Assembly: GCF_000300335.1 (NCBI RefSeq)
Contig: NZ_AMRM01000006.1
Location: 62,001 to 126,000 of the forward strand
Direction: 5' to 3'
DNA length: 64,000 nt
Source of the DNA: Nitratireductor pacificus pht-3B
GTDB lineage: Bacteria > Pseudomonadota > Alphaproteobacteria > Rhizobiales > Rhizobiaceae
Part shown: one piece after another, positions 13,918 through 43,439 of the stretch
Layout of the letters: each line of letters starts with the position of its first letter
How positions within the stretch are numbered: position 1 is the stretch's first letter
Translations under genes and position numbers: made by a program
Notes under the pieces: generated by a model
Seen by the model: the letters and a program-made list of their open reading frames with translations, nothing else
The model's database searches: none
Told to the model about the DNA's origin: nothing

Positions 13918-13923
13918 ACCTTG

Positions 13924-26564: not shown

Positions 26565-26996
26565 ATGAGCGATCGCATCTTCGGCGTTTTCGGCCTGCTG
26601 CTCGCTGCCTTCTATCTCTGGCAGGCGACGCAGATCGAACTCAGCTTCATCTCCGATCCATTCGGACCCAAGGCCTTTCCATACATGATCGGCATCGTGC
26701 TGGCCGTCGCCAGCGCCATCGTCGTGCTGAAGCCGGACACGGAGCCCGAATGGCCGAGCTTTCCGCGGCTGTTCGAGATCGGCATGGCCACCGCCGTGAT
26801 GATCGCCTACGCGATGTTTCTCAAGGAATACGGCTTCGTCGCCTGCACCGCGGTCGCGGCGGCCTATCTGTCATGGCGCCTCGGCGCCGCGCCGCTTTCG
26901 GCCGTCATTGCCGGCATAGCCATCGCCATCGGCATCTATGTCATCTTCCACCTCGTCCTCGGTCTGTCGCTGGCGCGCGGACCGTGGGGCTTCTGA
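26565..26996 (+). CDS. tctB: tripartite tricarboxylate transporter small membrane subunit
   Basis: This 143-aa protein has four hydrophobic segments. IFGVFGLLLAAFYLWQATQI and SDPFGPKAFPYMIGIVLAVAS are typical of TctB. It assembles with TctA in the inner membrane. Start ATG 26565 follows AAGAGGGAAC. Confidence 0.9.
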   Translation: MSDRIFGVFGLLLAAFYLWQATQIELSFISDPFGPKAFPYMIGIVLAVASAIVVLKPDTEPEWPSFPRLFEIGMATAVMIAYAMFLKEYGFVACTAVAAAYLSWRLGAAPLSAVIAGIAIAIGIYVIFHLVLGLSLARGPWGF

Positions 26997-27012
26997 GCCG
27001 GGAGGCAGACCA

Positions 27013-28548
27013 ATGGACACACTCGCTTCACTGGCCGACGGCTTCGCCGTCGCGCTCACCTGGCAGAACCTGTTCCTGGCGCTGATCGGCTGCTTTCTCG
27101 GCACCATCATCGGCGCACTGCCGGGCCTCGGCCCGTCCAACGGCGTGGCGATCCTCATTCCGCTCGCCTTCACGCTCGGCCTGCCGGCCACGCCGGCGCT
27201 GATCCTTCTGACCAGCGTCTATTACGGCGCCATGTATGGCGGGCGCATCTCGTCGATCCTGCTCAACATCCCCGGCGACGAGCCGGCCCTGATGACGACG
27301 CTCGACGGCTATCCGATGGCGCGCGCCGGCAAGGCCGGCGAGGCGCTGGCCATTTCCGGCATCGCCTCCTTCGTCGGCGCCTTCTTCGCCACCTGGGGTC
27401 TGGTCTTCCTCGCCCCGCAGCTCGTCAAGGTGGCGCTGCTGTTCGGCCCGGCGGAGTATTTCGCGCTGTTCGTGCTGGCCTTCGCCACGCTCGGCGGCGT
27501 CGCCAGCCGCAACCAGGCCAAGGCCGCCTTCGCCGCCGCCCTCGGTCTCGGCATCGCCACCATCGGCGTCGACGGCCAGACCGGCGTGCCTCGCTTCGCC
27601 TTCGGCGAGGTGCATCTCTATGACGGTATCGACTTCCTCGTCGCCATCGTCGGCCTGTTCGCGCTCTCGGAGGTGTTCATCTTCCTCGAGCACCGCGCCG
27701 GCGGCAGCGGCGCCGACGGGGCGATGAAGGTCGGCCGCGTCATTCCCCGGTGGAAGATGGTGCGCGAGACGGTGCCGGCCATGGGCCGCTCGACGATCCT
27801 CGGCTTCATCGCCGGCGTGCTGCCGGGCGCCGGCGCCTCGCTCGGCTCCTTCATCTCCTACACGTTCGAGAAGCGCATCTCCGACCGCAACGGCACGTTC
27901 GGCAAGGGCGATCCGCGCGGCATCGCGGCTCCCGAAGCCGGCAACAACGCCGCTGCCGGCGGGGCGCTCGTGCCGATGCTGGCGCTCGGCGTGCCGGGCT
28001 CCGGCACCACTGCCGTGCTGCTCGCCATGCTGCTCGCCCTCAACATCACGCCCGGGCCCCTGCTCTTCCAGCAGAACCCCGACGTGGTGTGGGGCCTGAT
28101 CGCCGCCCTGTTCATCGGCAATCTGATGCTGCTCGCCATGAACCTGCCGATGGTGTCGCTGTTCGTGCGGGTGCTGCTGATCCCGACACGCTACCTGATG
28201 CCCGCCGTGGCGATGATCTCCTTCGTCGGCATCTACGGCATCTCCGGCTCGACCTTCGACCTGATGGTGATGATCGCCTTCGGCGTTCTCGGCTGGGTGC
28301 TGCGCAAGCTCGACGTGCCGCTGGTGCCGATCATCCTCGGCGTGCTGCTCGGCGACCAGATGGAGAAGAACCTGCGCCGCGCCATGACCATCCATGACGG
28401 CGACTGGACGATGCTGTTCAACTCGTGGCTGGCCATCGGCCTATGGGCCTTCGCCATCGTCGGCTTCGTGCTGCCGCTGATCGTCGGGCGCTACTTCCGC
28501 CCGAAGATCGCCGACGAGCCGATCGCCGAGGGCGCCGATCCGGACTGA
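27013..28548 (+). CDS. tctA: tripartite tricarboxylate transporter large membrane subunit
   Basis: This 511-aa protein has about 11-12 helices. The two repeated TctA signatures are present: GALPGLGPSNGVAILIPLAF near the N-terminus and GVLPGAGASLGSFISYTFEKR after residue 280. YYGAMYGGRISSILLNIPGD and ALGVPGSGTTAVLL also match. It is the sodium- or proton-driven channel of the TTT importer. ATG 27013 follows GGGAGGCAGACC. A strong terminator lies 122 bp beyond the stop. Confidence 0.94.
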   Translation: MDTLASLADGFAVALTWQNLFLALIGCFLGTIIGALPGLGPSNGVAILIPLAFTLGLPATPALILLTSVYYGAMYGGRISSILLNIPGDEPALMTTLDGYPMARAGKAGEALAISGIASFVGAFFATWGLVFLAPQLVKVALLFGPAEYFALFVLAFATLGGVASRNQAKAAFAAALGLGIATIGVDGQTGVPRFAFGEVHLYDGIDFLVAIVGLFALSEVFIFLEHRAGGSGADGAMKVGRVIPRWKMVRETVPAMGRSTILGFIAGVLPGAGASLGSFISYTFEKRISDRNGTFGKGDPRGIAAPEAGNNAAAGGALVPMLALGVPGSGTTAVLLAMLLALNITPGPLLFQQNPDVVWGLIAALFIGNLMLLAMNLPMVSLFVRVLLIPTRYLMPAVAMISFVGIYGISGSTFDLMVMIAFGVLGWVLRKLDVPLVPIILGVLLGDQMEKNLRRAMTIHDGDWTMLFNSWLAIGLWAFAIVGFVLPLIVGRYFRPKIADEPIAEGADPD

Positions 28549-30316: not shown

Positions 30317-31222
30317 TCAACCTCCCGAGGCGGCGTGGTTTCGCACCCCTGCCGTCCGGGCCGTCCGGGCTGTCCGGTAAGTCAGGAAACCGGTGGCGGC
30401 AACGATGATCGCCGCCCCCACCACCGTGTTCAGGCTCGGCACCTCGCCGAAGAAGAGATAGCCGACCGCGCCGGACAGGATCAGGCTCGCATAGCCAAGC
30501 GGCCCGAGAAAGCCGGCATCGCCCAGCCAGTGGGCGCGCAGGAAGCAGAATTGCGCGGCCTGCGAAAAGACGCCCACCGCCAGCAGGAACGGCCAGTGCG
30601 CCGCGTCGACCATCTGCCAGCCCGTCAGCGCCGGCCAGGCGGTGATCAACGCCAGTCCGCCCGTATAGAACAGCATCATCACCACCGGCGGCGTGCCCTT
30701 CAGTTGCCGCGTGACGATGATCGCCCCCGTACCGGCGAGGACGGCGGCAAGTGCCGCGAGCAGCGCCGGCGTCCATGGTACGTTGCCGGGACTTGCCGCA
30801 ATGAAGGCGCCGACCAGCCCCAGCGCCGCCGCCAGCCAGCGCGAGCCGGACACCGCCTCGCGCAGGATCAGCGCCGACAGCGCCACCAGCACCACGGGCC
30901 GCGTGAAATTCATGGTCATGTAGAAGGCGAGCGGCAGATGCGCCACGGCGTAGAAACCGCCCGTCAGCGCAACCGCCGACAGCGCCACGCGGAAAAGATG
31001 CAGCCCCGGCCGGTCGATGCGGGCGAGCACATGGCGCTGGCGCGCCAGCCACGGCAGGATCAGCACGAAGCCCGTCAGCGCCCGCAGGAAGACGAGCTGC
31101 CATGCGGGATAGCCGGCGCCCAGCGCCTTGACGATGGAGATGGCCCAGATGTTGAGGCCCATATCCGCCATCAGCCAAAGGCCGGCGCGCAGATTGTCCT
31201 TTGCCGAGGCGCCGCCGCTCAC
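30317..31222 (-). CDS. DMT-superfamily (EamA) transporter
   Basis: This 301-aa protein has ten hydrophobic segments in two EamA repeats (first about 13-140, second about 150-290). It starts with GTG at 31222, overlapping the PIG-L stop (GTGA), so translation is coupled to the deacetylase. EamA proteins mostly export metabolites but some import them. It is the last gene of the ROK-PIG-L-DMT operon, which suggests it moves a product or substrate of the deacetylase. Confidence 0.85.
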   Translation of the reverse strand: MSGGASAKDNLRAGLWLMADMGLNIWAISIVKALGAGYPAWQLVFLRALTGFVLILPWLARQRHVLARIDRPGLHLFRVALSAVALTGGFYAVAHLPLAFYMTMNFTRPVVLVALSALILREAVSGSRWLAAALGLVGAFIAASPGNVPWTPALLAALAAVLAGTGAIIVTRQLKGTPPVVMMLFYTGGLALITAWPALTGWQMVDAAHWPFLLAVGVFSQAAQFCFLRAHWLGDAGFLGPLGYASLILSGAVGYLFFGEVPSLNTVVGAAIIVAATGFLTYRTARTARTAGVRNHAASGG

Positions 31223-33573
31223 GGCCGCGCCAGGAGATTGGCCATGAGGCGGAAGGCGCCCGGCACAAGCTTCTCCATCTGGTGATGCAGGATCAGCGCC
31301 ACATGGCTGTGCCGTCCCTTGCCGATCCTTGCCGACAGAAGCGCGCCCCGGTGCGGCGCCTCGTCCGGGTCGGCCATTTCCAGGAGCGGCTCGTAGTCCG
31401 GGTCCCAGCTCTTGGCGAAGTACAGCCCGCGCTCCTTGTGCCAGCCGGCCCAGTCGTCGGCCGTGATGCGGTTCGGCGTGTTGAACAGCGGGTGGTCGGG
31501 CTGGAGATGCGTCACCTCGGCGTTCTCATCGGTCACGCGCCAGCGCAGCGAGGGCTTGCCGATCTCCAGCATCCGCGGCGGCACGCGCTGCGGGTCCCAG
31601 GCGTCCCAGGGCCGGTGATAGAGCGTCACCAGATTGCCACCCGCCGCAACCCAGTCATGCACGAGCGGCATCGCCGCCTTCAGCGCCGGCCGCGTCCGCA
31701 TGGCGAAGATGCCGACCAGCAGCGTGTCGAATGCCTTGAGCCCCTCCGTGGTCAGCGCGCCGTCGTCCAGCTCGGTCACGTCGAGGCCGAGCGCCCGCAG
31801 CCAGCGGCAAACCCGGTCGTTGCCGCCGCCCACATAGCCGATGCGCGCCTCCGGTAGCGTCACGTCGAGGACGCGCACCGAAAGCGCTGCCGGAAAAGCC
31901 CGCGCATGCACGCCGATATGCGGATAGGCGATGCGGTTCACCGTCATCACCGGCTCATCGTCGAGCCGCAGCGGCAGGCTGTACAGCCCCGGCGCGACGC
32001 CCTGCGCGGCCGTCACCTGCAACATGCCGCCGGCGGGTTCGGCCCGCCAGCCGTCCGGCAGGTCGAGCGAGGCCTTCGCCTCCGCCGGAAAGGCATCGGC
32101 GATGCGCACGGCAATGCTGCGGCCGCCGGCCGCCAGGTTGATCAGCGCCCGGTCCGGCGCCAGTGTCGCCGAGCGTGCCGGCAGCACGACGGGCGGCGTC
32201 TCCAGCGGCAGCAGCGTCTCGGCGGAAACACTGTCGACGGTGACGCCGACGCGCATCGCCGGCAGGCGCGCGCGGCCCGGCGTGTAGCTCGCCGGATAGG
32301 GATCGGAGGGCGCCGCGTCCGCCGCCACCTGGATCGTTCCGTTCACGAACCGCCATCCCCTCGGCACCACCGGCGTAATCTCGGCCGCCGCGCCAACGGC
32401 CTCGACATGGAGGGCGGCGCTTTCGCCCGGCCTCAGCAGGTCGGCGGCAAGCGCTGCGCGCAGCTCGACGCCGCTGGCGACGCGCATCACGTGCGAAAGC
32501 TGCTGCTCCTTTGCCGCCAGGCGATGCTGCACCTCGGCCCGCGCGCGCTCCGGACAGGCATCGCGCGCGGCGCGCACCTTGGTCAGCGCCGCCGCCGCGT
32601 GGCGGGCAACCGCCTGCATGTCCGGAAAGGCGCCGATCGCCGCATTGCAATCGGCCTGCGCGCCCGCAAGCCCGGCCTCGACCTCCGGCGCGCCGGCAAA
32701 GGCGGCCAGCTGCGACAGGTCGGCCGGCAGGCCGGCCGTCAGCGCCTTGTCCGGGCCGTCCACCGTGGAGCGCACCAGATGCAGCGGCCAGTCCTTCCTT
32801 GTGCCGTGCGGCACCCAGCGGCCCATGCCCTGCGTCCGATGGAAGGCGCGCGACTGTTCGCCGATCTGCGCCCAGCTCCAGCCGGTCACGGGATCCTCGC
32901 CGCTCGCTTCCACCGTCAGCGTGGCGTTGGGCGGCGGCAGGTCGTCGTCATAGGCGTCGCCCGCGCCCGACCAGGCCGGCAGATAGAGCTTCTTCACCTG
33001 CCAGACCGGTAGGTCCACGCCTGAGAAGGTCGGGTCGGCGGCGGCGCTTACCACATCATGCGCCATCTCCGTCATGGCCCGGTGGTGGCCATGCTGGCCG
33101 GGAATGTTCAGGAAGGTCGGGCAGATGATGTCGGGCCGTTCCGTGCGGACAATCTCGACGAAGCGCTTCAGCGTCCGCTCGCGCCCCCATTTCTCCAGGG
33201 TTTCCGTGCCGCTCTTCGAAAAGCCGAAGTCGAAGATCGCATCGTCGGGCGTTTCGGAGAGCCAGTAAAGATTGAGGTTGAGCACGTCCGCCGCCCGCTC
33301 CATCTCCGCCGTGCGCACCACGCCGAGATCATGCGTGACCTCGGTGCCGATGTCGTTCTGCCCGCCCTCGCCGCGCGTCGAACAGGCATAGGAGAGCGAC
33401 AGCCCGTCGCGAAAGGCGAGCGCGGCCAGCATCTCGGAGGTCTCGTCGTCCGGGTGGGCGCCCGTGTTCATGAACGACACGCAGGACCTGAGCGGCGCCA
33501 GCGCCCGCCAAAGCCGAACGATGCGCGGGCTGCGCATCTGCGCGGCGATGCGTTCCTGATCGGAAACGGGCAT
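31219..33573 (-). CDS. large PIG-L family deacetylase with C-terminal ThuA/glutamine-amidotransferase-like domain
   Basis: This 784-aa protein has an N-terminal PIG-L (LmbE-like) zinc hydrolase domain with NTGAHPDDETSEML (His40, Asp43 and neighbours) and the second metal motif GQHGHHRAMTEMAHD. A middle region (about 400-560) looks beta-rich. The C-terminal part (about 565-784; RIGYVGGGNDRVCRWLRALG, LVTLYHRPWDAW) looks like a ThuA/class I amidotransferase-like fold. PIG-L enzymes remove N-acetyl groups from GlcNAc-type conjugates. No signal peptide is seen, so it acts in the cytoplasm. Start follows GGAGGTCTGGA, 19 bp after the ROK stop. Confidence 0.85.
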   Translation of the reverse strand: MPVSDQERIAAQMRSPRIVRLWRALAPLRSCVSFMNTGAHPDDETSEMLAALAFRDGLSLSYACSTRGEGGQNDIGTEVTHDLGVVRTAEMERAADVLNLNLYWLSETPDDAIFDFGFSKSGTETLEKWGRERTLKRFVEIVRTERPDIICPTFLNIPGQHGHHRAMTEMAHDVVSAAADPTFSGVDLPVWQVKKLYLPAWSGAGDAYDDDLPPPNATLTVEASGEDPVTGWSWAQIGEQSRAFHRTQGMGRWVPHGTRKDWPLHLVRSTVDGPDKALTAGLPADLSQLAAFAGAPEVEAGLAGAQADCNAAIGAFPDMQAVARHAAAALTKVRAARDACPERARAEVQHRLAAKEQQLSHVMRVASGVELRAALAADLLRPGESAALHVEAVGAAAEITPVVPRGWRFVNGTIQVAADAAPSDPYPASYTPGRARLPAMRVGVTVDSVSAETLLPLETPPVVLPARSATLAPDRALINLAAGGRSIAVRIADAFPAEAKASLDLPDGWRAEPAGGMLQVTAAQGVAPGLYSLPLRLDDEPVMTVNRIAYPHIGVHARAFPAALSVRVLDVTLPEARIGYVGGGNDRVCRWLRALGLDVTELDDGALTTEGLKAFDTLLVGIFAMRTRPALKAAMPLVHDWVAAGGNLVTLYHRPWDAWDPQRVPPRMLEIGKPSLRWRVTDENAEVTHLQPDHPLFNTPNRITADDWAGWHKERGLYFAKSWDPDYEPLLEMADPDEAPHRGALLSARIGKGRHSHVALILHHQMEKLVPGAFRLMANLLARP

Positions 33574-33592
33574 TCCAGACCTCCAGGGTTGT

Positions 33593-34792
33593 TCAAGTCT
33601 TCGCGGCGATGCGCGGCGTGATCGTGTCGTGGATGACGAGGGCGGCCCCGCCCAGCGCGGCCGTCAGGCGGCCGCACGCGCCACGCATCACGCGCGGCGT
33701 CTTCCGGCCGGGCCGGACGGCGACGGAGCCGCCCGCAAGGGAGAGCCCGCCGATCAGATGATCGAGCACGGCATTGGGCATCGCTCCGCCAAGGATCACC
33801 GTTTCTGGGTCGAACAGGTTCTCGATCATGCCGATCGCCTGCGACAGCGGCGCAGCCGCCGCGTCGAGCCAGGCCATCAGCGCGGGATTGTTCTCGTGGT
33901 AGAGGCGTTCGATGTCGCTGGCGCTCGCCAGTTCGATGCCGGCGGCGGCGAGTTCGGTCCGCGCCGCGATGCGGCTCGCATAGGTTTCGAGACAGCCCCG
34001 GTTGCCGCAGGCGCATTGCCGCCCGCCGGGCGTCACCACCACATGGCCGATCTCGCCCGCATTGCCGAAGGCGCCGCGCTGCACCTCGCCATCGGCCACC
34101 ATGCCGAGGCCGAGACCGGCGCCGAAATAGATGAAGCAATAGGTCCTGAGGCCGGAGGCGACGCCGCGCACGCGCTCGGCGACCGCCGCCGCCGTCGCGT
34201 CGTTCTCGACGATCACCGCCGTCTCCAGCGCTTCCTCGAACAGCGCCGTCGCGTCCGTTTCGCCCCAGCCCTGCAGCGCCGACTGGCCCGCGCCGGAAAT
34301 GCCGACATTGCCGAACGGACCCGGCATCACCACGCCCGCGCCGAGCAGCCGCTGGTTCTTCATCGGCCGAGCCACAAGCGCGCCGGCGCGGATCTCGCGC
34401 GCCGCCGCCGCGACCGAGGCCGGGGCGCTGTCGGTCAAGGCGATGCGCGTGGTGAACAGCGTCTCGCCTTCCAGGTCGACCAGCGCGCCGAACATGGCGT
34501 CCGGGCGCACCTCGATGCCGAGCGCCGCCGCGCCATGACCGTTCAGCCGGTATTGCAGCGCCGGAAGGCCGCGCCCCGCCACCTGCCGCCCCGCCTCGGC
34601 GAGGAACCCGTCCTCGACCAGTTCGGCGATGATGTTGCTGACGGCCTGCGTCGAAAGACCCGAAATGCGCGCCAGCTCGGCGCGGCCGACGGGCTGCTGC
34701 TCGGATACGTGGCCGAGCACGACCTGCCGGTTGTGCAGGCGCGTCCGTTCGGCATTGGAACCGACGATGCGGCGCGGGCTCGTGATTTTCAT
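33593..34792 (-). CDS. ROK-family transcriptional repressor
   Basis: The 399-aa protein has an N-terminal winged helix (RAELARISGLSTQAVSNIIAELVEDGFL), then the ROK sugar-kinase-like domain with VVMPGPFGNVG, IVENDATAAAV and the zinc motif HVVVTPGGRQCACGNRGCLE. Members such as NagC, Mlc and XylR repress sugar operons and release on binding a sugar or sugar phosphate. It is divergent from the sugar ABC importer, and two abutting 17-bp operators lie between them. Confidence 0.92.
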   Translation of the reverse strand: MKITSPRRIVGSNAERTRLHNRQVVLGHVSEQQPVGRAELARISGLSTQAVSNIIAELVEDGFLAEAGRQVAGRGLPALQYRLNGHGAAALGIEVRPDAMFGALVDLEGETLFTTRIALTDSAPASVAAAAREIRAGALVARPMKNQRLLGAGVVMPGPFGNVGISGAGQSALQGWGETDATALFEEALETAVIVENDATAAAVAERVRGVASGLRTYCFIYFGAGLGLGMVADGEVQRGAFGNAGEIGHVVVTPGGRQCACGNRGCLETYASRIAARTELAAAGIELASASDIERLYHENNPALMAWLDAAAAPLSQAIGMIENLFDPETVILGGAMPNAVLDHLIGGLSLAGGSVAVRPGRKTPRVMRGACGRLTAALGGAALVIHDTITPRIAAKT

Positions 34793-34804
34793 ATCAGCCT
34801 ATTA

Positions 34805-34821
34805 ATTCAACTAACTTGAAT
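34805..34821. promoter_or_regulatory. candidate ROK operator, copy 1
   Basis: ATTCAACTAACTTGAAT is an inverted repeat with perfect 6-bp arms (ATTCAA/TTGAAT) around a 5-bp core. It lies 13 bp upstream of the ROK start codon and touches copy 2. Confidence 0.65.
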
Positions 34822-34838
34822 ATTCAACTTGATTGAGT
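34822..34838. promoter_or_regulatory. candidate ROK operator, copy 2
   Basis: ATTCAACTTGATTGAGT has the same 6-5-6 layout as copy 1, with one arm mismatch (ATTCAA/TTGAGT). It starts at the base after copy 1 ends, so the two 17-bp sites are in tandem without spacer, in the AT-rich divergent promoter region. Confidence 0.55.
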
Positions 34839-34979
34839 TAAACCCGGAAAATTCTGTCGGAAGCACGAAACAGGAAACCGGACAGAGGGTGAAATTCGCC
34901 GCAAGCGGGTCGATAGAGGCGCGCCGGATGCGCGCCAGAGCGACGAAAACGCGTTGCGGCTTATCAGGGAGCGAATGCA

Positions 34980-36245
34980 ATGAAGCTGATGAACAGATTT
35001 CGCACGTTCATGCTGGGCGCGGCGACCGCCGCGCTGACGGCTGCCTCCGCCACGACTGCCTCCGCCGTCGAGATCGAGTACTGGCAGTACTTCTTCGAAG
35101 CGCGCGTCACCGCGATGGACAAGCTGATCGAGAATTTCCAGACGGCCAATCCCGACATCACCGTCAAGATGACCCACTTCCCCTACGACGCCTACCGCAC
35201 CAAGGTGGCAGCCGCCATTCCCGCCGGCCAGGGTCCCGACGTGGTGCAGCTCTTCTACGGCTGGCTGAACGACTATGTGGAAGCAAAGCTGATCCAGCCG
35301 CTGCCGGCCGACGCCTTCCCGCCCGAGAAGATCGAGGCGGAATTCTTCCCGATGGTGAAGGCGATGCGGATGGGCGACAATTACTGGGCGCTTCCGACCG
35401 CCGTGCGCTCGCTGGCGCTGTTCTACAACCAGCGCATGTTCGAGGACGCCGGCATCGAGAACCCGCCGGCCAATCTCGACGAACTGGTCGAGATGGCGAA
35501 GAAGCTCACCCAGAAGGACGGCGCCGGAAACCTGACTGCCGTCGGCCTCACCACCGGCATGACCGCGCAGGACCATCACTGGATCCGCGAAGTGCTGGTG
35601 CGCCAGTATGGCGGCGAGCCCTATCTGAACGACTACAAGACGGTGAACTACAACAACGAGGCGGGCCTCAAGGCGTTCAACTTCTACAACGACCTGCAGG
35701 CCAAGCACGGCGTCACCAAGGCCGCCTTCATGGATGAGCCGCAGGCCGCCTTCAAGGCCGGACGAGCCGGCATGCACATCGACGGTTCGTTCCGCATCGG
35801 CGCGCTGGAAAGCGTGCGCGGCCTGAAATGGGGCGTGGCGGAGCTGCCCGCCGGCCCGGACGGCACCCGCTCCAACTACGCCTCCTACTGGGTCAACGCC
35901 ATCACCTCGAAGGCCGAGGGCGAGAAGCGTGACGCCGCCGTCAAGTTCATGCAGTACCTGACCTCCGACGAGGCGATGCAGATCTGGCTGGAGACGGTCG
36001 GCGAGCTGCCGGCCAAGCCATCCGCGGCCATGACCGACAAGAACGTCAACGACCCGGTCTACGGCCCCTTCATCAAGGGCCTGGAATACGCCAAGACGAC
36101 CGTCTTCGCCGACGAGAGCGCCCAGCGCCAGGTGATGGTCGACATGATGCAGCGCGTCGAGCTGCAGGGTCAGTCGATGGAAGACAGCGTCTCTGAGGCG
36201 GCCGCCGCCGAGCAGAAAATCCTCGACGAATACTACAACAAGTAA
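34980..36245 (+). CDS. sugar ABC transporter substrate-binding protein (family 1)
   Basis: This 421-aa secreted protein has a signal peptide (about 1-29, ...TTASA) and the family-1 pattern: IEYWQYFFEARVTAMDKLIENFQTANPDI, GPDVVQLFYGWLNDYVEAKLIQPLP, FYNQRMFEDAGIENPPANLDEL. It has the length of MalE/UgpB-like proteins. It delivers an oligosaccharide or sugar conjugate to the two permeases that follow. A hairpin sits right after its stop. Confidence 0.92.
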   Translation: MKLMNRFRTFMLGAATAALTAASATTASAVEIEYWQYFFEARVTAMDKLIENFQTANPDITVKMTHFPYDAYRTKVAAAIPAGQGPDVVQLFYGWLNDYVEAKLIQPLPADAFPPEKIEAEFFPMVKAMRMGDNYWALPTAVRSLALFYNQRMFEDAGIENPPANLDELVEMAKKLTQKDGAGNLTAVGLTTGMTAQDHHWIREVLVRQYGGEPYLNDYKTVNYNNEAGLKAFNFYNDLQAKHGVTKAAFMDEPQAAFKAGRAGMHIDGSFRIGALESVRGLKWGVAELPAGPDGTRSNYASYWVNAITSKAEGEKRDAAVKFMQYLTSDEAMQIWLETVGELPAKPSAAMTDKNVNDPVYGPFIKGLEYAKTTVFADESAQRQVMVDMMQRVELQGQSMEDSVSEAAAAEQKILDEYYNK

Positions 36246-36252
36246 GGGCCCT

Positions 36253-36279
36253 GGGCGTCCGGCACCGCGCCGGGCGCCC
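36253..36279 (+). promoter_or_regulatory. intercistronic hairpin after the sugar-binding protein gene
   Basis: GGGCGTCCGGC (36253-36263) pairs with GCCGGGCGCCC (36269-36279) with a single T-G wobble position and a 5-nt loop. There is no T-tract. It probably stabilises the binding-protein mRNA relative to the permeases. Confidence 0.6.
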
Positions 36280-36312
36280 TGCCTCATCGGGGTCTGGCAG
36301 CGGAACGGGGCG

Positions 36313-37206
36313 ATGCGCTTCTATCAAAATCTCACCATCTCGCAGAAGCAGATCGCCTGGGCATGGGCCTTCCTGGCCCTCCCGGTCCTGTTCTATGTCG
36401 TCATCCGCTTCTATCCGACGGCGAACGCCTTCGTCCTATCGTTCCAGGAATGGAACCTCTTGGGCGCGCGCTCCTTCACCGGCTTCGACAATTACGTCCG
36501 GCTCTACAACGACCCGGTCTTCTGGAAGGTGTTCCGCAACACCTTCATGTACCTGATCCTCGGCACGCCGGTCAGCCTCGTGCTCTCCTTCGTCATCGCC
36601 TACCATCTCGACAAGGTGCGCTTCATGCACGGCACGATCCGGGCGCTCTACTTCATCCCCTTCATGACCAGCGCGGTGGCCATGGCCTGGGTGTGGCGCT
36701 GGTTCTATCAGCCGGTGCCGATCGGCGTGTTCAACAATTTCCTGGCGACGCTCGGCTTCGGGCAGATCCCGTTCCTGAGCTCGACCACCAACGCGCTCCC
36801 CTCCGTGCTGGCGCCCGCCATCTGGGCCGGGCTCGGCTTCCAGGTGATCATCTTCATGGCGGGTCTCCGCGCCATCCCGCAGAGCTATTATGAGGCGGCG
36901 CGCATCGACGGCGTGTCGAGCTGGACGGTGCTTTGGGAGATCACCATCCCGCTCCTGAAGCCGACCGTCGTCTTCCTCGTCGTGTTCTCCTCGATCGGCT
37001 TTCTCAGGATCTTCGATCAGGTCTACAACATGACCACGAACAATCCCGGCGGGCCGCTCAATTCCACCAAGCCGCTGGTGCTCCTGATCTACGACACGGC
37101 CTTCAACGGCTTCAACATGGGATACGCTGCGGCGCAGACGGTGGTGCTCTTCACCATCCTGCTGATCGTCAGCCTGATCCAGCTCCGCATCCTGAGGGAC
37201 CGCTGA
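36313..37206 (+). CDS. sugar ABC transporter permease (MalF/UgpA type)
   Basis: This 297-aa protein has six helices. The EAA loop that contacts the ATPase reads YYEAARIDGVSSWTVLWEITIPLLKP. The N-terminal WAFLALPVLFYVVIRFYPTANAFVLSFQEW is typical of the MalF-type partner. It ends 1 bp before the second permease gene. Confidence 0.93.
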   Translation: MRFYQNLTISQKQIAWAWAFLALPVLFYVVIRFYPTANAFVLSFQEWNLLGARSFTGFDNYVRLYNDPVFWKVFRNTFMYLILGTPVSLVLSFVIAYHLDKVRFMHGTIRALYFIPFMTSAVAMAWVWRWFYQPVPIGVFNNFLATLGFGQIPFLSSTTNALPSVLAPAIWAGLGFQVIIFMAGLRAIPQSYYEAARIDGVSSWTVLWEITIPLLKPTVVFLVVFSSIGFLRIFDQVYNMTTNNPGGPLNSTKPLVLLIYDTAFNGFNMGYAAAQTVVLFTILLIVSLIQLRILRDR

Positions 37207-37207
37207 C

Positions 37208-38089
37208 ATGGCCGCACAGGACGCCGCGATCAAGGCTTCGAGCGACACGCTCTTTTCCGGCTCGTCGCGCGGCTCGCGCCGCAACATGGGCCAGTTCATC
37301 CGCTGGGCGCTGCTTTTTGGCGGCGGCATCCTGATGATCATGCCGATCGTCTTCATGCTGTCGACCTCGCTCAAATTCCCCTTCGAGGTCTACAATCTGA
37401 ACCTGATCCCCGAAGAGCCGACCATCGAGAACTACACCTATGTGCTCGCCGACGGCCGGTTCTTCGGCTGGTTCTGGAACTCGCTGATCATCGCCACGCT
37501 GACCACCGTCTCGGCCGTCTTCTTCGACGCGCTGGTCGGCTACGCGCTGTGCAAGTTCAAGTTTCCCGGCCGCTACCTGATCTTCATCGCCATCCTCTCG
37601 ACGCTGATGATCCCGACCGAGATGTTGGTCATCCCCTGGTACCTGATGAGCAAGAGCTTCGGCTGGCTCGACACCTATTGGGGCATCATGTTCCCCGGCA
37701 TCATGACCGCCTTCGGCACCTTCCTGATGAAGCAGTTCTTCGAGACCGTTCCAGACGACTTCCTCGAAGCGGCGCGCATCGACGGGCTGAACGAGTTCCA
37801 GATCTGGTGGCAGGTGGCGATGCCGCTGGTGCGCCCGGCGCTCGCCGCCCTCGCCATCTTCGTCTTCCTCGGCAACTGGACCGCCTTCATCTGGCCGCTG
37901 ATCGTCACCAATTCGGTCGACATGTACACGCTGCCCGTCGGCCTCTCGAGCTTCGGCGACGAGGTGGACGTCGCCTGGGAGCTGATCATGACGGGCGCCG
38001 CCATCTCGACCCTGCCGACGCTGGTCGTCTTCCTGGTGTTCCAGCGCTTCATCATCCGCGGCGTCGTGATGGCCGGGCTGAAAGGTTAG
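37208..38089 (+). CDS. sugar ABC transporter permease (MalG/UgpE type)
   Basis: This 293-aa protein has six helices, and the EAA loop is LEAARIDGLNEFQIWWQVAMPLVRP. Together with the upstream permease it forms the membrane channel. The lyase gene starts 5 bp after its stop. Confidence 0.93.
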   Translation: MAAQDAAIKASSDTLFSGSSRGSRRNMGQFIRWALLFGGGILMIMPIVFMLSTSLKFPFEVYNLNLIPEEPTIENYTYVLADGRFFGWFWNSLIIATLTTVSAVFFDALVGYALCKFKFPGRYLIFIAILSTLMIPTEMLVIPWYLMSKSFGWLDTYWGIMFPGIMTAFGTFLMKQFFETVPDDFLEAARIDGLNEFQIWWQVAMPLVRPALAALAIFVFLGNWTAFIWPLIVTNSVDMYTLPVGLSSFGDEVDVAWELIMTGAAISTLPTLVVFLVFQRFIIRGVVMAGLKG

Positions 38090-38094
38090 GACCG

Positions 38095-39573
38095 ATGGAG
38101 AAGTTCCCCCATCCCGTCTACAAGGAGACGGTGCTCGCGCCGCTGTTCGAAGGCGTCAAGGCGCATTACGTTCCCGCCTTCCGCGCCATCAACCGCGCCC
38201 ATCTCGTGATGCTCGCGGAAACCGGCATCCTGGGCGCGGATGACAGCCGCCGCATCGCCGCCGCCCTCGTCGACATCGACAGGACCGTCGATGTCGCCGC
38301 CCTCACCTATACCGGCGAGGTCGAGGACTATTTCTTCCTTGTCGAGGCTGAGCTGAAGAAGCGGCTCGGGCCGGATCTCGCCGGCATGCTGCACACGGCC
38401 CGCTCGCGCAACGACATGGACCACACGGTCTTCAAGCTGACCCTGAAGCGCCATGCGGACGCCATGATCGACAAGGCACAGGCGCTCGCCGCCGCCATGA
38501 TCGACAAGGCTGCGGCCGAGCGCGATACGCTGATCGTCGCCTATACGCACGGCCAGCCGGCGCAACCCTCCACCTTCGGTCATTATCTCTCGGCGGCGGT
38601 CGAGGTGCTCCTGCGCGACATCGAGCGCCTACAGGCGGCGCGCGCCAATATCGACCATTGCCCCATGGGGGCGGCGGCCATCACCACCAGCGGCTTCCCC
38701 ATCGACCGACAGCGCATGTCCGACCTGCTCGGCTTCGCCGGCCCGTTGCGCAATTCCTATGGCTGCATCGCCTCGGTCGACTACACGACCGGCTTCTACG
38801 CCGCGATCAAGCTGGTCTTCCTGCATCTCGGCCGCTTCATCCAGGACCTGCAGTTCTGGTCCGCCTTCGAGGTGGGCCAGCTCCATGTGCCGGGCAGCCT
38901 CGTGCAGATCTCGTCAATCATGCCGCAGAAGCGCAACCCGGTGCCGATCGAGCATCTGCGCCATCTCGCCTCGATGACCGCGGGCCGCGCCGACGCCATC
39001 GTCAACACCATGCACAACACGCCCTTCACCGACATGAACGACAGCGAGGGCGAGGTGCAGAGCGCGGGCTACGCGGCCTTCGAGAGCGGCGCGCGCGTGC
39101 TCGACCTGCTGGCGGCCCTCATCGCCGCCGTTTCCATCGACGGGGCGCGGGTTGCAAAAAACATCGACGCCGCCTGCATCACCGTCACCGAGCTTGCCGA
39201 CACGCTGGTGCGCCGCGAGGGCCTGTCCTTCCGCCAGGCGCACGAGATCGCCGCCGACACGGCGCGCGCCGTGATCGCCGCCGGCACGCCGCTCGGCGCC
39301 GGTCATGCCGCCTTCGCACGGGCCTTCCGCGAGCGGACGGGCCGCGACAGCGCGCTCGACGAACCCGCCTTCGCCGAAGCCGTCAGCGCCCGCCATTTCG
39401 TCGCGCTGCGCGAGCGCTTCGGTGGCCCCGGCCCGAAAGCGATGGACGAGGCGCTCGCCGCCTACCGCGCCGCGCTCACCGCCCTTTCCGACCGCCAGGC
39501 GGCGGACGCCGCCCGCACCGCCGAGGCCCGGGCCGCGCTCGACGCCGCCTTCGACGCCCTTCTTCAGGAGTAG
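38095..39573 (+). CDS. argininosuccinate lyase-like enzyme of the fumarase/aspartase superfamily
   Basis: The 492-aa product carries the three superfamily regions: TARSRNDMDHT, YTHGQPAQPSTFGHY (general base histidine region) and SSIMPQKRNPVPIE (the mobile catalytic-serine loop). These enzymes reversibly eliminate an amine or alcohol from a succinyl-type group, releasing fumarate. Differences from true ArgH (THGQPAQP instead of THLQRAQP; DMDHT in the C1 region), and the position between sugar-importer genes instead of arginine genes, argue for another substrate. The frame is open from 37549, but ATG 38095 starts the homology. Confidence 0.82.
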   Translation: MEKFPHPVYKETVLAPLFEGVKAHYVPAFRAINRAHLVMLAETGILGADDSRRIAAALVDIDRTVDVAALTYTGEVEDYFFLVEAELKKRLGPDLAGMLHTARSRNDMDHTVFKLTLKRHADAMIDKAQALAAAMIDKAAAERDTLIVAYTHGQPAQPSTFGHYLSAAVEVLLRDIERLQAARANIDHCPMGAAAITTSGFPIDRQRMSDLLGFAGPLRNSYGCIASVDYTTGFYAAIKLVFLHLGRFIQDLQFWSAFEVGQLHVPGSLVQISSIMPQKRNPVPIEHLRHLASMTAGRADAIVNTMHNTPFTDMNDSEGEVQSAGYAAFESGARVLDLLAALIAAVSIDGARVAKNIDAACITVTELADTLVRREGLSFRQAHEIAADTARAVIAAGTPLGAGHAAFARAFRERTGRDSALDEPAFAEAVSARHFVALRERFGGPGPKAMDEALAAYRAALTALSDRQAADAARTAEARAALDAAFDALLQE

Positions 39574-39577
39574 ACTT

Positions 39578-40636
39578 TTGGCCACGCTCTCCCTTCGCAA
39601 TCTCGTCAAGACCTACGGCAAGGTGGAGGTGCTGCACGGCATCGGCCTTGACGTCGCGGATGGCGAGTTCGTCGTGCTGGTCGGCCCGTCCGGCTGCGGC
39701 AAGTCCACCACGCTGCGCATGATCGCCGGCCTGGAAGAGGTTTCCGGCGGCGAGATCCACATCGGCGACCGGCTCGTCAACGATCTGGAGCCGAAGGACC
39801 GCGACATCGCCATGGTGTTCCAGAACTACGCCATCTACCCGCACATGTCGGTGCGCAGGAACATCGGCTTCGGCCTCAGGACGGCAAGAATGCCGAAGGC
39901 TGACAAGGAGAAGCGCATCGAGGAAGTGGCCGCCATCCTCGGCATGACCGATCTTCTCGAACGCCGCCCCAACCAGCTTTCCGGCGGCCAGCGCCAGCGC
40001 GTCGCCATCGGCCGCGCCATGGTGCGCAACCCGGCCGTCTTCCTGTTCGACGAGCCGCTGTCCAATCTCGACGCGCAATTGCGCACGCAGATGCGCCTGG
40101 AGATCAAGAAGCTGCACCAACGGGTCGGCAACACGATCATCTTCGTCACCCACGACCAGGTGGAGGCGATGACCATGGCCGACCGCATCGTCATCATGAA
40201 GGATGGCCATATCCAGCAGGTCGGCACGCCGCTCGAGGTCTATCACAAGCCGGCGAATATTTTCGTCGCGCAGTTCATCGGCGCGCCCTCGATGAACATG
40301 CTGCCGGGCATCTGGAGCAAGGGTGGCGTGACGCTCGCCGACGGCGCGCGGATCGCCCTGCCCCATCGCAAGGCAACCGAGGGCGCCGAGGTGGTGCTCG
40401 GCCTGCGGCCGGACGATCTTCTCGTGACGCAGGACAAGGGCCTCTTCTCCGGTACCGTCAACATCGTCGAGCCGCTCGGCGCCGACACGCTCGTCCATGT
40501 CGCCGTCAACGGCCACGAGGTCATCGCCAAGGCGTCGGGCCGCGAGCCGCCGAAGACCGGCGCGACCGTGGCGCTCACCGCCGATGCCGGCGAGATGCAC
40601 CTGTTCGATGCCGGCAACGGGGAGGCCCTGCCGTGA
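39578..40636 (+). CDS. sugar ABC transporter ATP-binding protein (MalK/UgpC type)
   Basis: The 352-aa ATPase has Walker A GPSGCGKST, Q-loop FQNYAIYPHMSV, signature LSGGQRQRVAIGRAMV, Walker B VFLFDEPLSNLD and the C-terminal TOBE-type domain (VVLGLRPDDLLV...). Start is TTG 39578 with AGGAG 7 nt upstream; the frame is open further upstream without homology. It energises the importer of this locus and overlaps the kinase gene by 4 nt. Confidence 0.93.
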   Translation: MATLSLRNLVKTYGKVEVLHGIGLDVADGEFVVLVGPSGCGKSTTLRMIAGLEEVSGGEIHIGDRLVNDLEPKDRDIAMVFQNYAIYPHMSVRRNIGFGLRTARMPKADKEKRIEEVAAILGMTDLLERRPNQLSGGQRQRVAIGRAMVRNPAVFLFDEPLSNLDAQLRTQMRLEIKKLHQRVGNTIIFVTHDQVEAMTMADRIVIMKDGHIQQVGTPLEVYHKPANIFVAQFIGAPSMNMLPGIWSKGGVTLADGARIALPHRKATEGAEVVLGLRPDDLLVTQDKGLFSGTVNIVEPLGADTLVHVAVNGHEVIAKASGREPPKTGATVALTADAGEMHLFDAGNGEALP

Positions 40637-41541
40637 CGCAGGCTCCGCGCTCAGGACATGCCGGCCGCGTCATCTCGGTTGGCCGGCTCTATTGCGACCT
40701 CATCTTCACCGGCCTGCCGAAAATGCCGACGCTCGGCGAGGAAGTGTTCGCCGGCGGCCTGTCGCTGACGCCCGGCGGCGGCGCCTTCATCACGGCTGCC
40801 TATGTGGCCGCGCTCGGCCGTCCCGTATCCCTCGCCTCGGCCCTCCCCTCCGGTCTGTTCGCCGAGGCGCTGATGCCGGAGCTGACGGCAAGCGGCGTCG
40901 ACCTTTCCGCCTCGCAGCCCACGTCTGCCGCGCTCGACCCGCAGATCACGGTCGCGATGGCGTCCGGTGTCGAGCGCGCCTTCCTGACGCGCCGTTCCGG
41001 TCCCGCAGTGCCGCCCGGCTTCGCCGCCGCGCTCGCCACGGGCCGCTTCGCGCATCTCCATATCGGCGAGCTGGCGACGCTGGTGGAGGAGCCGTCGCTC
41101 GTGCCGCTGGCGCGCGCCGCGGGCATGACCGTGTCGCTCGACTGTTCGTGGGACGATGCGGTGCTGGCGCGCGACGACTTGGCCGCGCTGATCGCCTCGG
41201 TGGACATTTTTCTGCCCAACGAGACGGAGGCCGACCGGCTCGGCATCTCTTCCTCCGCGCCGCCGCCCGCCCCTCTGACCGTCGTCAAGCGCGGCGCGCA
41301 TGGCTCGGTGGCGCTCAGCGCCGAGGGCGCCGTCTTCGTCAAGGCGCGTCCTGTCGAGGTGATCGATTCCACCGGCGCGGGCGACGCCTTCAATGCCGGC
41401 TTCATCGACGCCTGGCTTTCCGGCCTGCCCGTCGAGCGCTGCCTGCGCGCCGGAAACCGCTGCGGCGCGGAAGCCGTCACCCGCATCGGCGGGGCGACGG
41501 AGCTGCCCGATCTCGCGGCACTGCTGGCGAAGCGCGCGTAG
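40633..41541 (+). CDS. PfkB-family carbohydrate kinase
   Basis: The 302-aa protein begins with GTG 40633 inside the ATPase stop. ISVGRLYCDLIF near the N-terminus and the anion-hole and catalytic motif VIDSTGAGDAFNAGF near the C-terminus are PfkB signatures. Such kinases phosphorylate fructose, ribose, nucleosides or other sugars at a hydroxyl with ATP. As last gene of the importer operon it should trap the sugar part of the imported compound. Confidence 0.9.
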   Translation: MTQAPRSGHAGRVISVGRLYCDLIFTGLPKMPTLGEEVFAGGLSLTPGGGAFITAAYVAALGRPVSLASALPSGLFAEALMPELTASGVDLSASQPTSAALDPQITVAMASGVERAFLTRRSGPAVPPGFAAALATGRFAHLHIGELATLVEEPSLVPLARAAGMTVSLDCSWDDAVLARDDLAALIASVDIFLPNETEADRLGISSSAPPPAPLTVVKRGAHGSVALSAEGAVFVKARPVEVIDSTGAGDAFNAGFIDAWLSGLPVERCLRAGNRCGAEAVTRIGGATELPDLAALLAKRA

Positions 41542-41651: not shown

Positions 41652-42278
41652 TTGCCCCCCTACAGGCTCTTCTGGGAAGCCATGTCCGGCGCGATGGCGC
41701 TGGAGATTCTGCTGGAGGAAATGGGGATCGCCTATGTCCCTGTGCCGGTCGACATGGCTGCGGGCGAGCACAAATCCGCCGGCTATCTCGCCCTGAACCC
41801 CACCGGACAGGTCCCCGCGCTGGCACTGCCCACCGGCGAAGTGATCGGCGAAAGCGCGGCGATCGTCATCGCGCTCGGCGAACGGCATCCCGGGTCGCCA
41901 CTGGTGCCGGGCGCCGGGTCGCCGCTGCGCGCGCGCTTCCTGCGCTGGCTCGTCTACATGGCCGCCAGCCCCTACATGACCTTCGTTCAGTTCAATCATC
42001 CCGAGCGTTTCATCGAGGATGAAGCTGCGCATCCGGCGCTGGTTGAGAACGCCAGGCGACGGCTCCTCGGCCAGTTCACTGCACTCGACCGCGCCATATC
42101 GGGATCACCCTTCTTCCTGGAAAGCGGGGTCAGCGCGCTGGACTTCTATCTCTACATGCTGATCGAGTTTCTGGGGGACAACCGGCAGGCATTCGACGGC
42201 CGCGCCAGACTGGCGTCGCTCCACCATGCCGTGGCGGCGCGTGAGCCGGTGGCGCGCGTGCGGGCGCGGCACGGATAA
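41652..42278 (+). CDS. glutathione S-transferase family protein
   Basis: This 208-aa protein has an N-terminal thioredoxin fold (YRLFWEAMSGAMALEILLEEMGIAYVPVPVD; NPTGQVPALALPTGEVIGESAAIV, with the cis-proline and the glutathione-binding ES pair) and a helical C-terminal domain. Start is TTG 41652 after a GGAGGAGG ribosome site. It stands 110 bp after the kinase and is probably a separate unit. Function is not predictable from sequence. Confidence 0.85.
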   Translation: MPPYRLFWEAMSGAMALEILLEEMGIAYVPVPVDMAAGEHKSAGYLALNPTGQVPALALPTGEVIGESAAIVIALGERHPGSPLVPGAGSPLRARFLRWLVYMAASPYMTFVQFNHPERFIEDEAAHPALVENARRRLLGQFTALDRAISGSPFFLESGVSALDFYLYMLIEFLGDNRQAFDGRARLASLHHAVAAREPVARVRARHG

Positions 42279-42383
42279 CGATCCGCCATTGGGACAGGAC
42301 CAGACCGGGAGACAGGATAAGCCTTGTCAGGCCTGCCCATCTCATGAAAGATGCCGGCTTCAATCCTGTTGCGTGAGTTGACC

Positions 42384-43439
42384 ATGAGTGGAAAGACCGA
42401 GCAGACCATGATCGGCGGCGCCAGCGTTCATCCATTGCCACGCTCGGCCGACAACACCGCGAAACCGCCCGCGCCGCATGCAGGCGGGCTGAGCCGCAAC
42501 CCCGGTATGCCGCTCGACCTCGGCTGGCTCGAGGCGATGCGCCACATCAACCGCAGCGCGCTGGAGCGCCGGGTGGACACGCTCGGCAAGCGCCGCTCGA
42601 TCAAGAAGGAGCATCAGGCCGCCTGGCTCCTGCGCGCCCTGGCGGTGATGGACCTGACCACGCTGTCCTCCGACGACACGCCCGACCGCGTGCTGCGGCT
42701 CTGCGCCAAGGCGCGCAACCCGCTGCGGCCCGACCTCATGGCCGGGCTCGGCATCGAGGACGAGGAGATCACGCCGGCCGCCGTCTGCGTCTATCATCCC
42801 TTCGTCTCGATCGCGGCGGAAGCGCTTGCCGGCACCGGCATCCATGTGGCGGCGGTCTCCACCGCCTTTCCGCACGGGCTGGCGCCGCTCCCGACGCGGA
42901 TCGCCGAAATCCGCGCCTCGGTCGAGGACGGCGCCGACGAGATCGACGTGGTGATCCCGCGCGGCCTTGTGCTCGGCGCGCACTGGGAGGAGCTTTACGA
43001 CGAGATCGCCCAGTTCAGGGCGGCCTGCGGGCAGGCGCATCTGAAGGTCATTTTGGGCACGGGCGATCTCGCGACCCTGCGCAACGTCACGCTCGCCTCG
43101 ATGGTGGCGATGATGGCCGGGGCGGACTTCATCAAGACCTCGACCGGCAAGGAAAGCGTCAATGCCACCCTGCCCGTCGGCCTCGCCATGGTACGGTGCA
43201 TCCGCGCCTATCACGAACACACGGGCATCCATATCGGCTTCAAGCCGGCCGGCGGCATCTCGACGGCCAAGGCCTCGCTCGACTGGCTGGTGCTGATGAA
43301 CGAGGAGCTCGGACGGCGCTGGCTGGAACCAGACCTGTTCCGCTTCGGCGCGTCGAGCCTCCTGACCGACATCGAGCGGCAGCTCGAACATCACCTGACC
43401 GGGCGCTATTCTGCCGCCCACCGCCACGCCATGGCCTGA
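42384..43439 (+). CDS. deoC: deoxyribose-phosphate aldolase
   Basis: The 351-aa class I aldolase cleaves 2-deoxyribose 5-phosphate to glyceraldehyde 3-phosphate and acetaldehyde. The Schiff-base lysine lies in ADFIKTSTGKESVNATLP, with the second lysine region LKVILGTGDLA and CVYHPFVSIAAEAL. It is the long alphaproteobacterial form. ATG 42384 and 42351 are both possible; the former has TGAG upstream and is nearer the conserved part. A palindromic element separates it from the aldehyde dehydrogenase, which could oxidise the acetaldehyde. Confidence 0.92.
   Translation: MSGKTEQTMIGGASVHPLPRSADNTAKPPAPHAGGLSRNPGMPLDLGWLEAMRHINRSALERRVDTLGKRRSIKKEHQAAWLLRALAVMDLTTLSSDDTPDRVLRLCAKARNPLRPDLMAGLGIEDEEITPAAVCVYHPFVSIAAEALAGTGIHVAAVSTAFPHGLAPLPTRIAEIRASVEDGADEIDVVIPRGLVLGAHWEELYDEIAQFRAACGQAHLKVILGTGDLATLRNVTLASMVAMMAGADFIKTSTGKESVNATLPVGLAMVRCIRAYHEHTGIHIGFKPAGGISTAKASLDWLVLMNEELGRRWLEPDLFRFGASSLLTDIERQLEHHLTGRYSAAHRHAMA

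Follow-up and report, generated by a model that had tools for sequence, protein, structure and literature searches.

A possible catabolic operon for glucosaminyl-malate-type conjugates in Nitratireductor pacificus, with a lyase paralogous to argininosuccinate lyase

Lyases of the fumarase superfamily require a 2-substituted succinate, and L-malate has the configuration that this superfamily uses. The substrates of argininosuccinate lyase (ArgH) and of EDDS lyase are N-substituted L-aspartates, and amides of glucosamine conjugates are hydrolysed by PIG-L enzymes. In bacillithiol synthesis, BshA yields D-N-acetylglucosaminyl-L-malate (GlcNAc-malate), BshB deacetylates it to glucosaminyl-L-malate (GlcN-malate) and BshC adds cysteine; malyl glucosaminides of this type are described as known and widespread (PMC6282198), and Bca is reported to cleave bacillithiol S-conjugates (PMC4360819). 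In the open-licence literature, we found no description of a breakdown route for bacillithiol, nor any paper that links the genes considered here. These genes lie at positions 30317-41541 of the window, as we call the whole 64,000-nucleotide stretch that was analysed, from the 4.47-Mb genome of Nitratireductor pacificus pht-3B (contig NZ_AMRM01000006.1, positions 62,001-126,000). They include genes for a sugar ATP-binding cassette (ABC) importer, a large PIG-L protein, an ArgH-like lyase and a ROK-family regulator. We estimate at about 0.5 the probability that this cassette serves to import and degrade, under ROK control, an N-acylated glucosaminyl 2-oxysuccinate, the likeliest being glucosaminyl-L-malate (bacillithiol, its derivatives or GlcNAc-malate).

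The first-pass annotation of the window had described two divergent operons of these gene families around tandem operators. This description held, since all nine genes could be placed and their Pfam and NCBIfam matches agree:

30317-31222, minus strand: EamA/DMT-family transporter (PF00892, 74.3 bits)
31219-33573, minus strand: large PIG-L/LmbE-type metal-dependent amide hydrolase, 784 amino acids (PF02585, 60.4 bits)
33593-34792, minus strand: ROK-family transcriptional regulator (PF00480, 140.4 bits)
34807-34819, no strand: operator-like inverted repeat 1, TCAA-n5-TTGA (from the sequence)
34824-34836, no strand: operator-like inverted repeat 2, TCAA-n5-TTGA (from the sequence)
34980-36245, plus strand: extracellular solute-binding protein (SBP) of a sugar ABC importer (PF13416, 136.1 bits)
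36313-37206, plus strand: ABC permease, UgpA/MalF type (PF00528, 55.8 bits; NF007852, 105.5 bits, below the cut-off of 335)
37208-38089, plus strand: ABC permease, UgpE/MalG type (PF00528, 71.2 bits; NF008210, 135.4 bits, below the cut-off of 297)
38095-39573, plus strand: argininosuccinate-lyase-like lyase (PF00206, 144 bits)
39578-40636, plus strand: ABC ATPase, UgpC/MalK type (NF008653, 509.6 bits, above the cut-off of 432)
40633-41541, plus strand: PfkB-family sugar kinase (PF00294, 118.7 bits)

Most neighbouring genes overlap or sit a few bases apart; 67 bases separate the SBP gene from the first permease gene. The TTG at 39578 is the likely start of the ATPase gene (the search used 39575-40636). 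The SBP, the two permeases and the UgpC/MalK ATPase with its TOBE/OB domain form an importer of the carbohydrate type (CUT1).

The lyase shows the fumarase/aspartase/argininosuccinate lyase (ASL) superfamily fold, with the Ser loop SSxMPxKxN and the catalytic His and Lys. Residues S274, H152, K279 and N281 are invariant in 117/117 relatives, these being all sequences compared minus ArgH and five paralogs set aside. The structure comparison with ArgH that the first-pass annotation had called for bears this out: a model of high confidence (predicted local distance difference test, pLDDT, 94.9) ranked EDDS lyase first and ArgH next in the PDB. The common fold, the SSIMPQK loop and the catalytic Ser, His, Lys and Asn are thus shared with ArgH, but the pocket is not. 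The family has V283 (114/117), H287 (117/117), H307 (114/117), N308 (115/117) and D313 (117/117) where ArgH has D, L, K, G and Y, each in 19/19 sequences. The ArgH substrate-loop residues (KGxPxxYxKDMQ, NPD) are not present, the YxKDMQ loop being replaced by HNTPFTDMND. Moreover, a true argH lies on another contig of the host genome with 620.7 bits, versus 287.6 bits for the cassette lyase in the same genome search. Searched as a single protein, the lyase scores 287.8 bits and passes the NCBIfam argH cut-off of 279.5; the usual annotation as argH follows from this score just over the cut-off. The suspicion that this is not a normal argH is therefore well founded: as judged by sequence, the lyase is a paralog and not the genome's ArgH, and a plain argH duplicate was rejected on account of the separate true argH and the differing pocket residues.

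EDDS lyase of Chelativorans, the top structural match, is likewise a fumarate-releasing lyase outside arginine synthesis. Its residues Q159, D290 and Y320 are placed near the substrate (PMC12363623), and the alignment puts H152, V283 and about M314 of the cassette lyase at these positions. Five other ASL-like paralogs also lack the ArgH Asp at the V283 position, so that loss of this Asp marks a lyase as 'not ArgH' rather than indicating a given bond type. In the host order, 24 of 297 genomes, the host's own included, have a lyase relative at 59% identity or more; the next matches by score lie at 33-36%, with 38% as the highest identity among the matches listed. In an unrooted tree of 141 lyases, the family came out as a single, weakly supported group (0.48) of 117 sequences, which includes the motif-less L125 and L136; rooting on ArgH failed, and the tree underlies no claim made here.

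Neighbourhoods were compared at 22 fetched loci for the 24 known host-order carriers (no neighbourhood could be drawn for G026, whose contig has 3 kb, and the contigs of L039 and L041 are short). A set of 80 loci, the best 80 of at least 590 candidates, is a biased sample because the search patterns came from an alignment of Alphaproteobacteria and Deinococcus and the best rows were kept. For relatives, the calls of signal peptides and helix-turn-helix regions rest on inspection by eye. The order SBP-permease-permease-lyase-ATPase is kept in 17/22 host-order loci, with both PIG-L and ROK in 13/22, and PfkB adjoins the ATPase in 9/22. No PIG-L, PfkB, NagB, NagB-II or NagK-like match was found in 18 loci around true ArgH (14 carrier genomes, 4 others). 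The cassette is conserved and not a chance assembly.

The cassette is also present, with EamA variably, on plasmid records of Rhodobacterales, Rhodospirillales and Hyphomicrobiales. Plasmids of Deinococcus deserti and D. ficus carry ROK, lyase (32-33% identity to the window lyase), SBP, permeases, a short PIG-L and a kinase in this order, with a large PIG-L after the lyase in D. ficus; D. aetherius and Deinococcus KNUC1210 have lyase, SBP and permeases only. In some Paenibacillus and other Bacillales, a different importer, an exported-looking large PIG-L and a NagK_SO3507-like kinase are found near the lyase. In several loci of Acidobacteria and two Gammaproteobacteria, PIG-L adjoins the lyase, and TonB-type receptors, sodium symporters or amino-acid permeases are close by (L102, L112 and L114 confirmed by Pfam, the remaining ones assigned by sequence start). 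Overall, a PIG-L match lies near the lyase in 18/25 alphaproteobacterial and 19/55 other loci, or 18/38 of the latter when both sides of the lyase had to extend over 5 kb or more. In the neighbourhood analysis that the first-pass annotation had proposed, PIG-L and lyase thus recur as a pair across phyla. Haladaptatus and Agrobacterium vitis have ASL-like genes that are more distant and stand in other gene contexts, and in Gordonibacillus kamchatkensis (L140:9681-11185) two overlapping reading frames take the place of one intact lyase gene. Taken together, these results describe a widely distributed, catabolic-looking module in which known families are newly combined, probably with a new lyase specificity.

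Glucosamine is very probably the sugar that is released, as suggested by the genes that accompany the lyase. A gene for a glucosamine-6-phosphate deaminase, NagB or the SIS-type NagB-II, is present at ten loci. NagB lies within the cassette in Paroceanicella, in two strains of one species, Loktanella salsilacus, and, with PfkB, at L048. NagB-II is the best NCBIfam match at L050, L053, L057, L067, L148 and L152 (254.6-322.3 bits, all below the cut-off of 430). The kinase type differs by lineage, being PfkB, ROK or NagK_SO3507-like. The ROK kinases of Roseomonas, Paroceanicella, Loktanella and Hungatella have a DxGGT motif and no helix-turn-helix by eye, and the NagK-like kinases reach 73 to 108 bits against a cut-off of 370. 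The window PfkB, which we propose as a putative glucosamine 6-kinase, reaches no NCBIfam cut-off, that for glucosamine kinase included, and matches the IolC and ribokinase models best. The phosphosugar or amino-sugar product expected by the first-pass annotation can thus be specified, given three kinase families and ten deaminase loci, as very probably a phosphorylated amino sugar.

Several matches were not counted in this analysis. 'ROKk' matches in L050, L053, L054 and L057 were all left out as kinases, those in L053 and L054 beginning with a helix-turn-helix-type regulator region. Also dropped were opposite-strand PfkB matches in the Bacillales L085, L094, L105 and L115, a NagB match at 29% in L108, which lies some 3 kb away on the opposite strand and by eye is probably a 6-phosphogluconolactonase, and a GlmS-like SIS protein of L114 (361.4 bits) as NagB-II. 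At the Paroceanicella nagB locus (L156:4189-6558), an annotated glycoside hydrolase family 9 gene stands about at the usual PIG-L place.

At genome level (threshold E<=1e-60), NagB or NagB-II was found somewhere in 22/22 host-order carriers (17 NagB-II, 5 NagB), tested from the 24 with G026 and G172 left out, versus 9/22 non-carriers (5 NagB-II, 4 NagB), which were picked by hand on size and completeness, ahead of the result and without family matching. The one-sided Fisher probability is about 1e-5, or 3e-5 minus the three carriers with NagB-II in the cassette, with kinship not corrected. The host's own NagB-II-like gene (292.9 bits) lies on contig C12 and adjoins a gene for N-acetylmuramic acid (MurNAc)-6-phosphate etherase. 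Catabolism of N-acetylglucosamine (GlcNAc) and MurNAc by NagK, NagB or NagB-II and MurQ similarly ends in glucosamine-6-phosphate and a deaminase, and MurNAc also has an acid side chain that needs removal. In contrast, the cassette has PIG-L and a fumarase-superfamily lyase for a putative dicarboxylic aglycone. No nagA is annotated beside the plasmid cassettes viewed, the one place where it was looked for.

The PIG-L domain of the large hydrolase (residues 37-173; 60.4 bits versus a gathering score of 28.2) is followed by extra domains. It carries the AHPDD and GHH motifs, and H40, D42, D43 and H164 are invariant in 42/42 sequences. PDB neighbours of its model (pLDDT 92.1) are MshB, the best, diacetylchitobiose deacetylase, BC1534 of B. 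cereus, BshB of B. subtilis and a ThuA-like protein. It stays below the BshB1 and BshB2 cut-offs (17.2 bits on the BshB2 model, cut-off 195.25). Among relatives, BshB2 is the best model for the short PIG-L of Paenibacillus L103 (114.7 bits) and MshB for that of D. deserti, both below the cut-offs. The window protein differs from MshB and mycothiol conjugate amidase in having 784 amino acids with further domains, and the aglycone of mycothiol is inositol, not malate. We propose that it may be a bacillithiol amidase or a GlcNAc-malate deacetylase. Such an activity on a GlcN-malate scaffold would equal BshB or Bca chemistry, but the importer, lyase, kinase and deaminase would make the cassette a breakdown route instead of one for biosynthesis or detoxification.

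Malate is proposed because an N-acyl glucosamine bearing a 2-substituted succinate is the bacillithiol skeleton; to our knowledge, L-malyl glucosaminide, the bacillithiol core, is the only known compound that fits and can be named. We infer the malate identity, the release of fumarate, every catalytic step and the regulation as follows. The ABC importer would take the conjugate in. PIG-L would cut the amide at the glucosamine nitrogen and leave GlcN-malate, the group lost being cysteine in the case of bacillithiol and acetate in that of GlcNAc-malate. The argH-like lyase would then eliminate the succinyl part in fumarase-superfamily fashion, yielding fumarate and glucosamine, and the PfkB kinase would form glucosamine-6-phosphate, possibly before the elimination. 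A glucosamine-6-phosphate deaminase from elsewhere, such as the NagB-II-like one on contig C12, would finally provide fructose-6-phosphate and ammonia for central metabolism. The ROK protein probably represses both operons via the two central repeats.

No bshC was found in the 22 tested host-order carriers, which excludes a bacillithiol biosynthesis cluster for this order and implies that a malyl glucosaminide would be scavenged. Outside the Alphaproteobacteria, bshC is present in 25 of 29 tested carriers, hand-chosen from the 55, where salvage rather than scavenging is perhaps the role. In Bacillus sp. SA1-12, two similar small DinB-looking genes flank the lyase (L078:9181-9684 and 13618-14127); DinB proteins include bacillithiol transferases (PMC4360819).

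A number of observations weigh against the glucosaminyl-malate proposal, besides the score of the lyase over the argH cut-off, the deaminase and kinase matches below theirs and the lack of family matching among non-carriers. The comparisons made hold no malate-specific evidence. In Bacillales and Acidobacteria, the phylum itself predicts bshC, which was counted there in carriers only. A cysteine dioxygenase gene beside EamA, which fits cysteine release, was seen among the loci scanned in Roseinatronobacter L060 only and may be there by chance. The lyase stands without any partner in 4/22 host-order loci (L051, L052, L055 and L056; at L039 the contig end cuts the locus). Plasmids of Bosea, Terrarubrum and Shinella show importer, lyase and ATPase with no annotated PIG-L or kinase in the incomplete PLSDB tables. 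PIG-L went undetected in 36/55 non-alphaproteobacterial loci, 16 of them with less than 5 kb on one side. The first-pass annotation had counted a PIG-L without a role against its own idea, and this is in part what was found: several relatives combine importer and lyase without PIG-L, which is present at only four of the ten deaminase loci (L048, L148, L157 and L159). No kinase was detected at deaminase loci L050, L053 and L057. Finally, some clusters have an Amidohydro_2 or metallo-beta-lactamase-fold protein in place of PIG-L. Such PIG-L-less relatives suggest that the acyl group or the route of its removal varies.

The lyases without partners come from four genomes of one genus and carry the motif variant HNTPFTDMTD; they are a possible functional offshoot. 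In L051 and L055, a gene resembling dehydrogenases of alpha-hydroxy acids dependent on flavin mononucleotide adjoins the lyase, with glycolate-oxidase-like genes close by (by eye). An Amidohydro_2-type protein, which may be an alternative amide hydrolase, adjoins the lyase where PIG-L is absent in L100, L106 and L110 (Paenibacillus) and in L074, L075 and L077 (Trueperaceae), as judged by Pfam for L110 and L075 and by N-terminal sequence for the other four. Metallo-beta-lactamase-fold genes stand beside PIG-L-less cassettes at L054:12787-13632 (best match AidB lactonase), L062:9178-10029 (Lactamase_B by Pfam) and L053:3075-3902 (by eye).

Among other explanations, an amino sugar N-linked to aspartate survives best, such as N-(1,2-dicarboxyethyl)-glucosamine of the Heyns type or an N-glycosyl aspartate, from which C-N cleavage would give glucosamine and fumarate. 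It would account equally for the glucosamine end product. The nearest solved fold, EDDS lyase, is a C-N lyase of N-substituted L-aspartates, and since ArgH also uses such substrates, the lyase is explained just as well by an amino sugar with an N-linked aspartyl group. The window PfkB has a weak fructoselysine-6-kinase match (57.1 bits versus a cut-off of 247), and the absence of PIG-L from 6/10 deaminase loci is what this explanation allows. Nevertheless, it leaves PIG-L without a clear job, and NagB would be superfluous for Amadori-type products. The replacement by Val of D290 of EDDS lyase, an Asp in all ArgH compared, also argues against it, an argument weakened by the five paralogs without that Asp. 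On balance we consider it unlikely.

The conjugate may instead be one of glucosamine with another 2-substituted succinate, undescribed in nature, through an O, S or N linkage. The evidence for glucosamine and for a fumarase-superfamily lyase holds without naming malate, and the TonB-type receptors and SSF or amino-acid permeases of Acidobacteria and relatives would suit a different or larger compound. However, no new compound is needed because malyl glucosaminides of the bacillithiol type are already known and widespread, which makes this alternative rather improbable. GlcNAc-asparagine, with its free alpha-amine and beta-amide, would leave the lyase no 2-substituted leaving group by general chemistry and was rejected as a substrate. 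Least probable of all is a conventional operon for an N-acetylated sugar or oligosaccharide, the lyase serving some unrelated purpose, for example in recycling argininosuccinate or another aspartate adduct: the ordinary sugar-operon type of importer and ROK regulator, the lyase score over the argH cut-off and the relatives that have the lyase without these partners agree with it, but the lyase sits between permease and ATPase genes in 17/22 host-order loci, is found again in other phyla within importer clusters of another gene arrangement, and differs in its pocket from the separate true ArgH.

The general idea of conjugate catabolism in the first-pass annotation therefore stands as to its catabolic look, with GlcNAc-malate or bacillithiol now the best candidate; PIG-L may remove an acetyl group or a cysteine, and the linkage may be O-malyl or N-aspartyl.

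As to regulation, the tandem operators were confirmed as sequence. The TCAA/TTGA core (spacer 4-7) is found in 15/37 homologous ROK/SBP intergenic regions, the window among them and L067 and L152 left out, versus a mean of 0.75 and a maximum of 4 in 100 dinucleotide shuffles. The ROK domain of the regulator is well above its gathering score (140.4 versus 22.9 bits). Five helix-turn-helix models match residues 25-71, none of them reaching its cut-off (MarR_2, the best, has 25.1 versus 27), and the NagC-like model NF047937 is the best NCBIfam match (108.9 bits versus a cut-off of 650), its alignment starting at residue 21. An EamA match lies near the lyase in 23/119 loci, and an EamA gene precedes the lyase also in the Bacillales L085 and L094. 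The EamA/DMT protein may export a released product or serve in uptake.

Genes 3' of the rightward operon encode a glutathione S-transferase (GST)-like protein (41667-42278), a DeoC/LacD aldolase (42351-43439) and an aldehyde dehydrogenase in which two stretches match Aldedh (43657-46023). These genes were rejected as operon members, there being no GST or DeoC match near relatives' lyases and aldehyde dehydrogenase matches solely at 35-37%, in L042, L075 and L105. Elsewhere, the window holds a two-component sensor kinase gene (23206-24642) and a gene of a TctA-family tripartite tricarboxylate transporter (26938-28548, 506.9 bits).

We tentatively suggest, with slightly less than even confidence, that the cassette represents the first bacillithiol catabolic pathway, in which a C-O-eliminating, fumarate-releasing glucosaminyl-malate lyase mis-annotated as ArgH would act alongside a PIG-L amidase and a kinase for amino sugars, for scavenging in non-producers and possibly for salvage in producers. 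If so, one operon family would recycle the carbon, the nitrogen and perhaps the sulfur of an imported conjugate, the ASL family would include a new C-O lyase activity, and the genes called argH or argininosuccinate lyase on the plasmid records would be misnamed.

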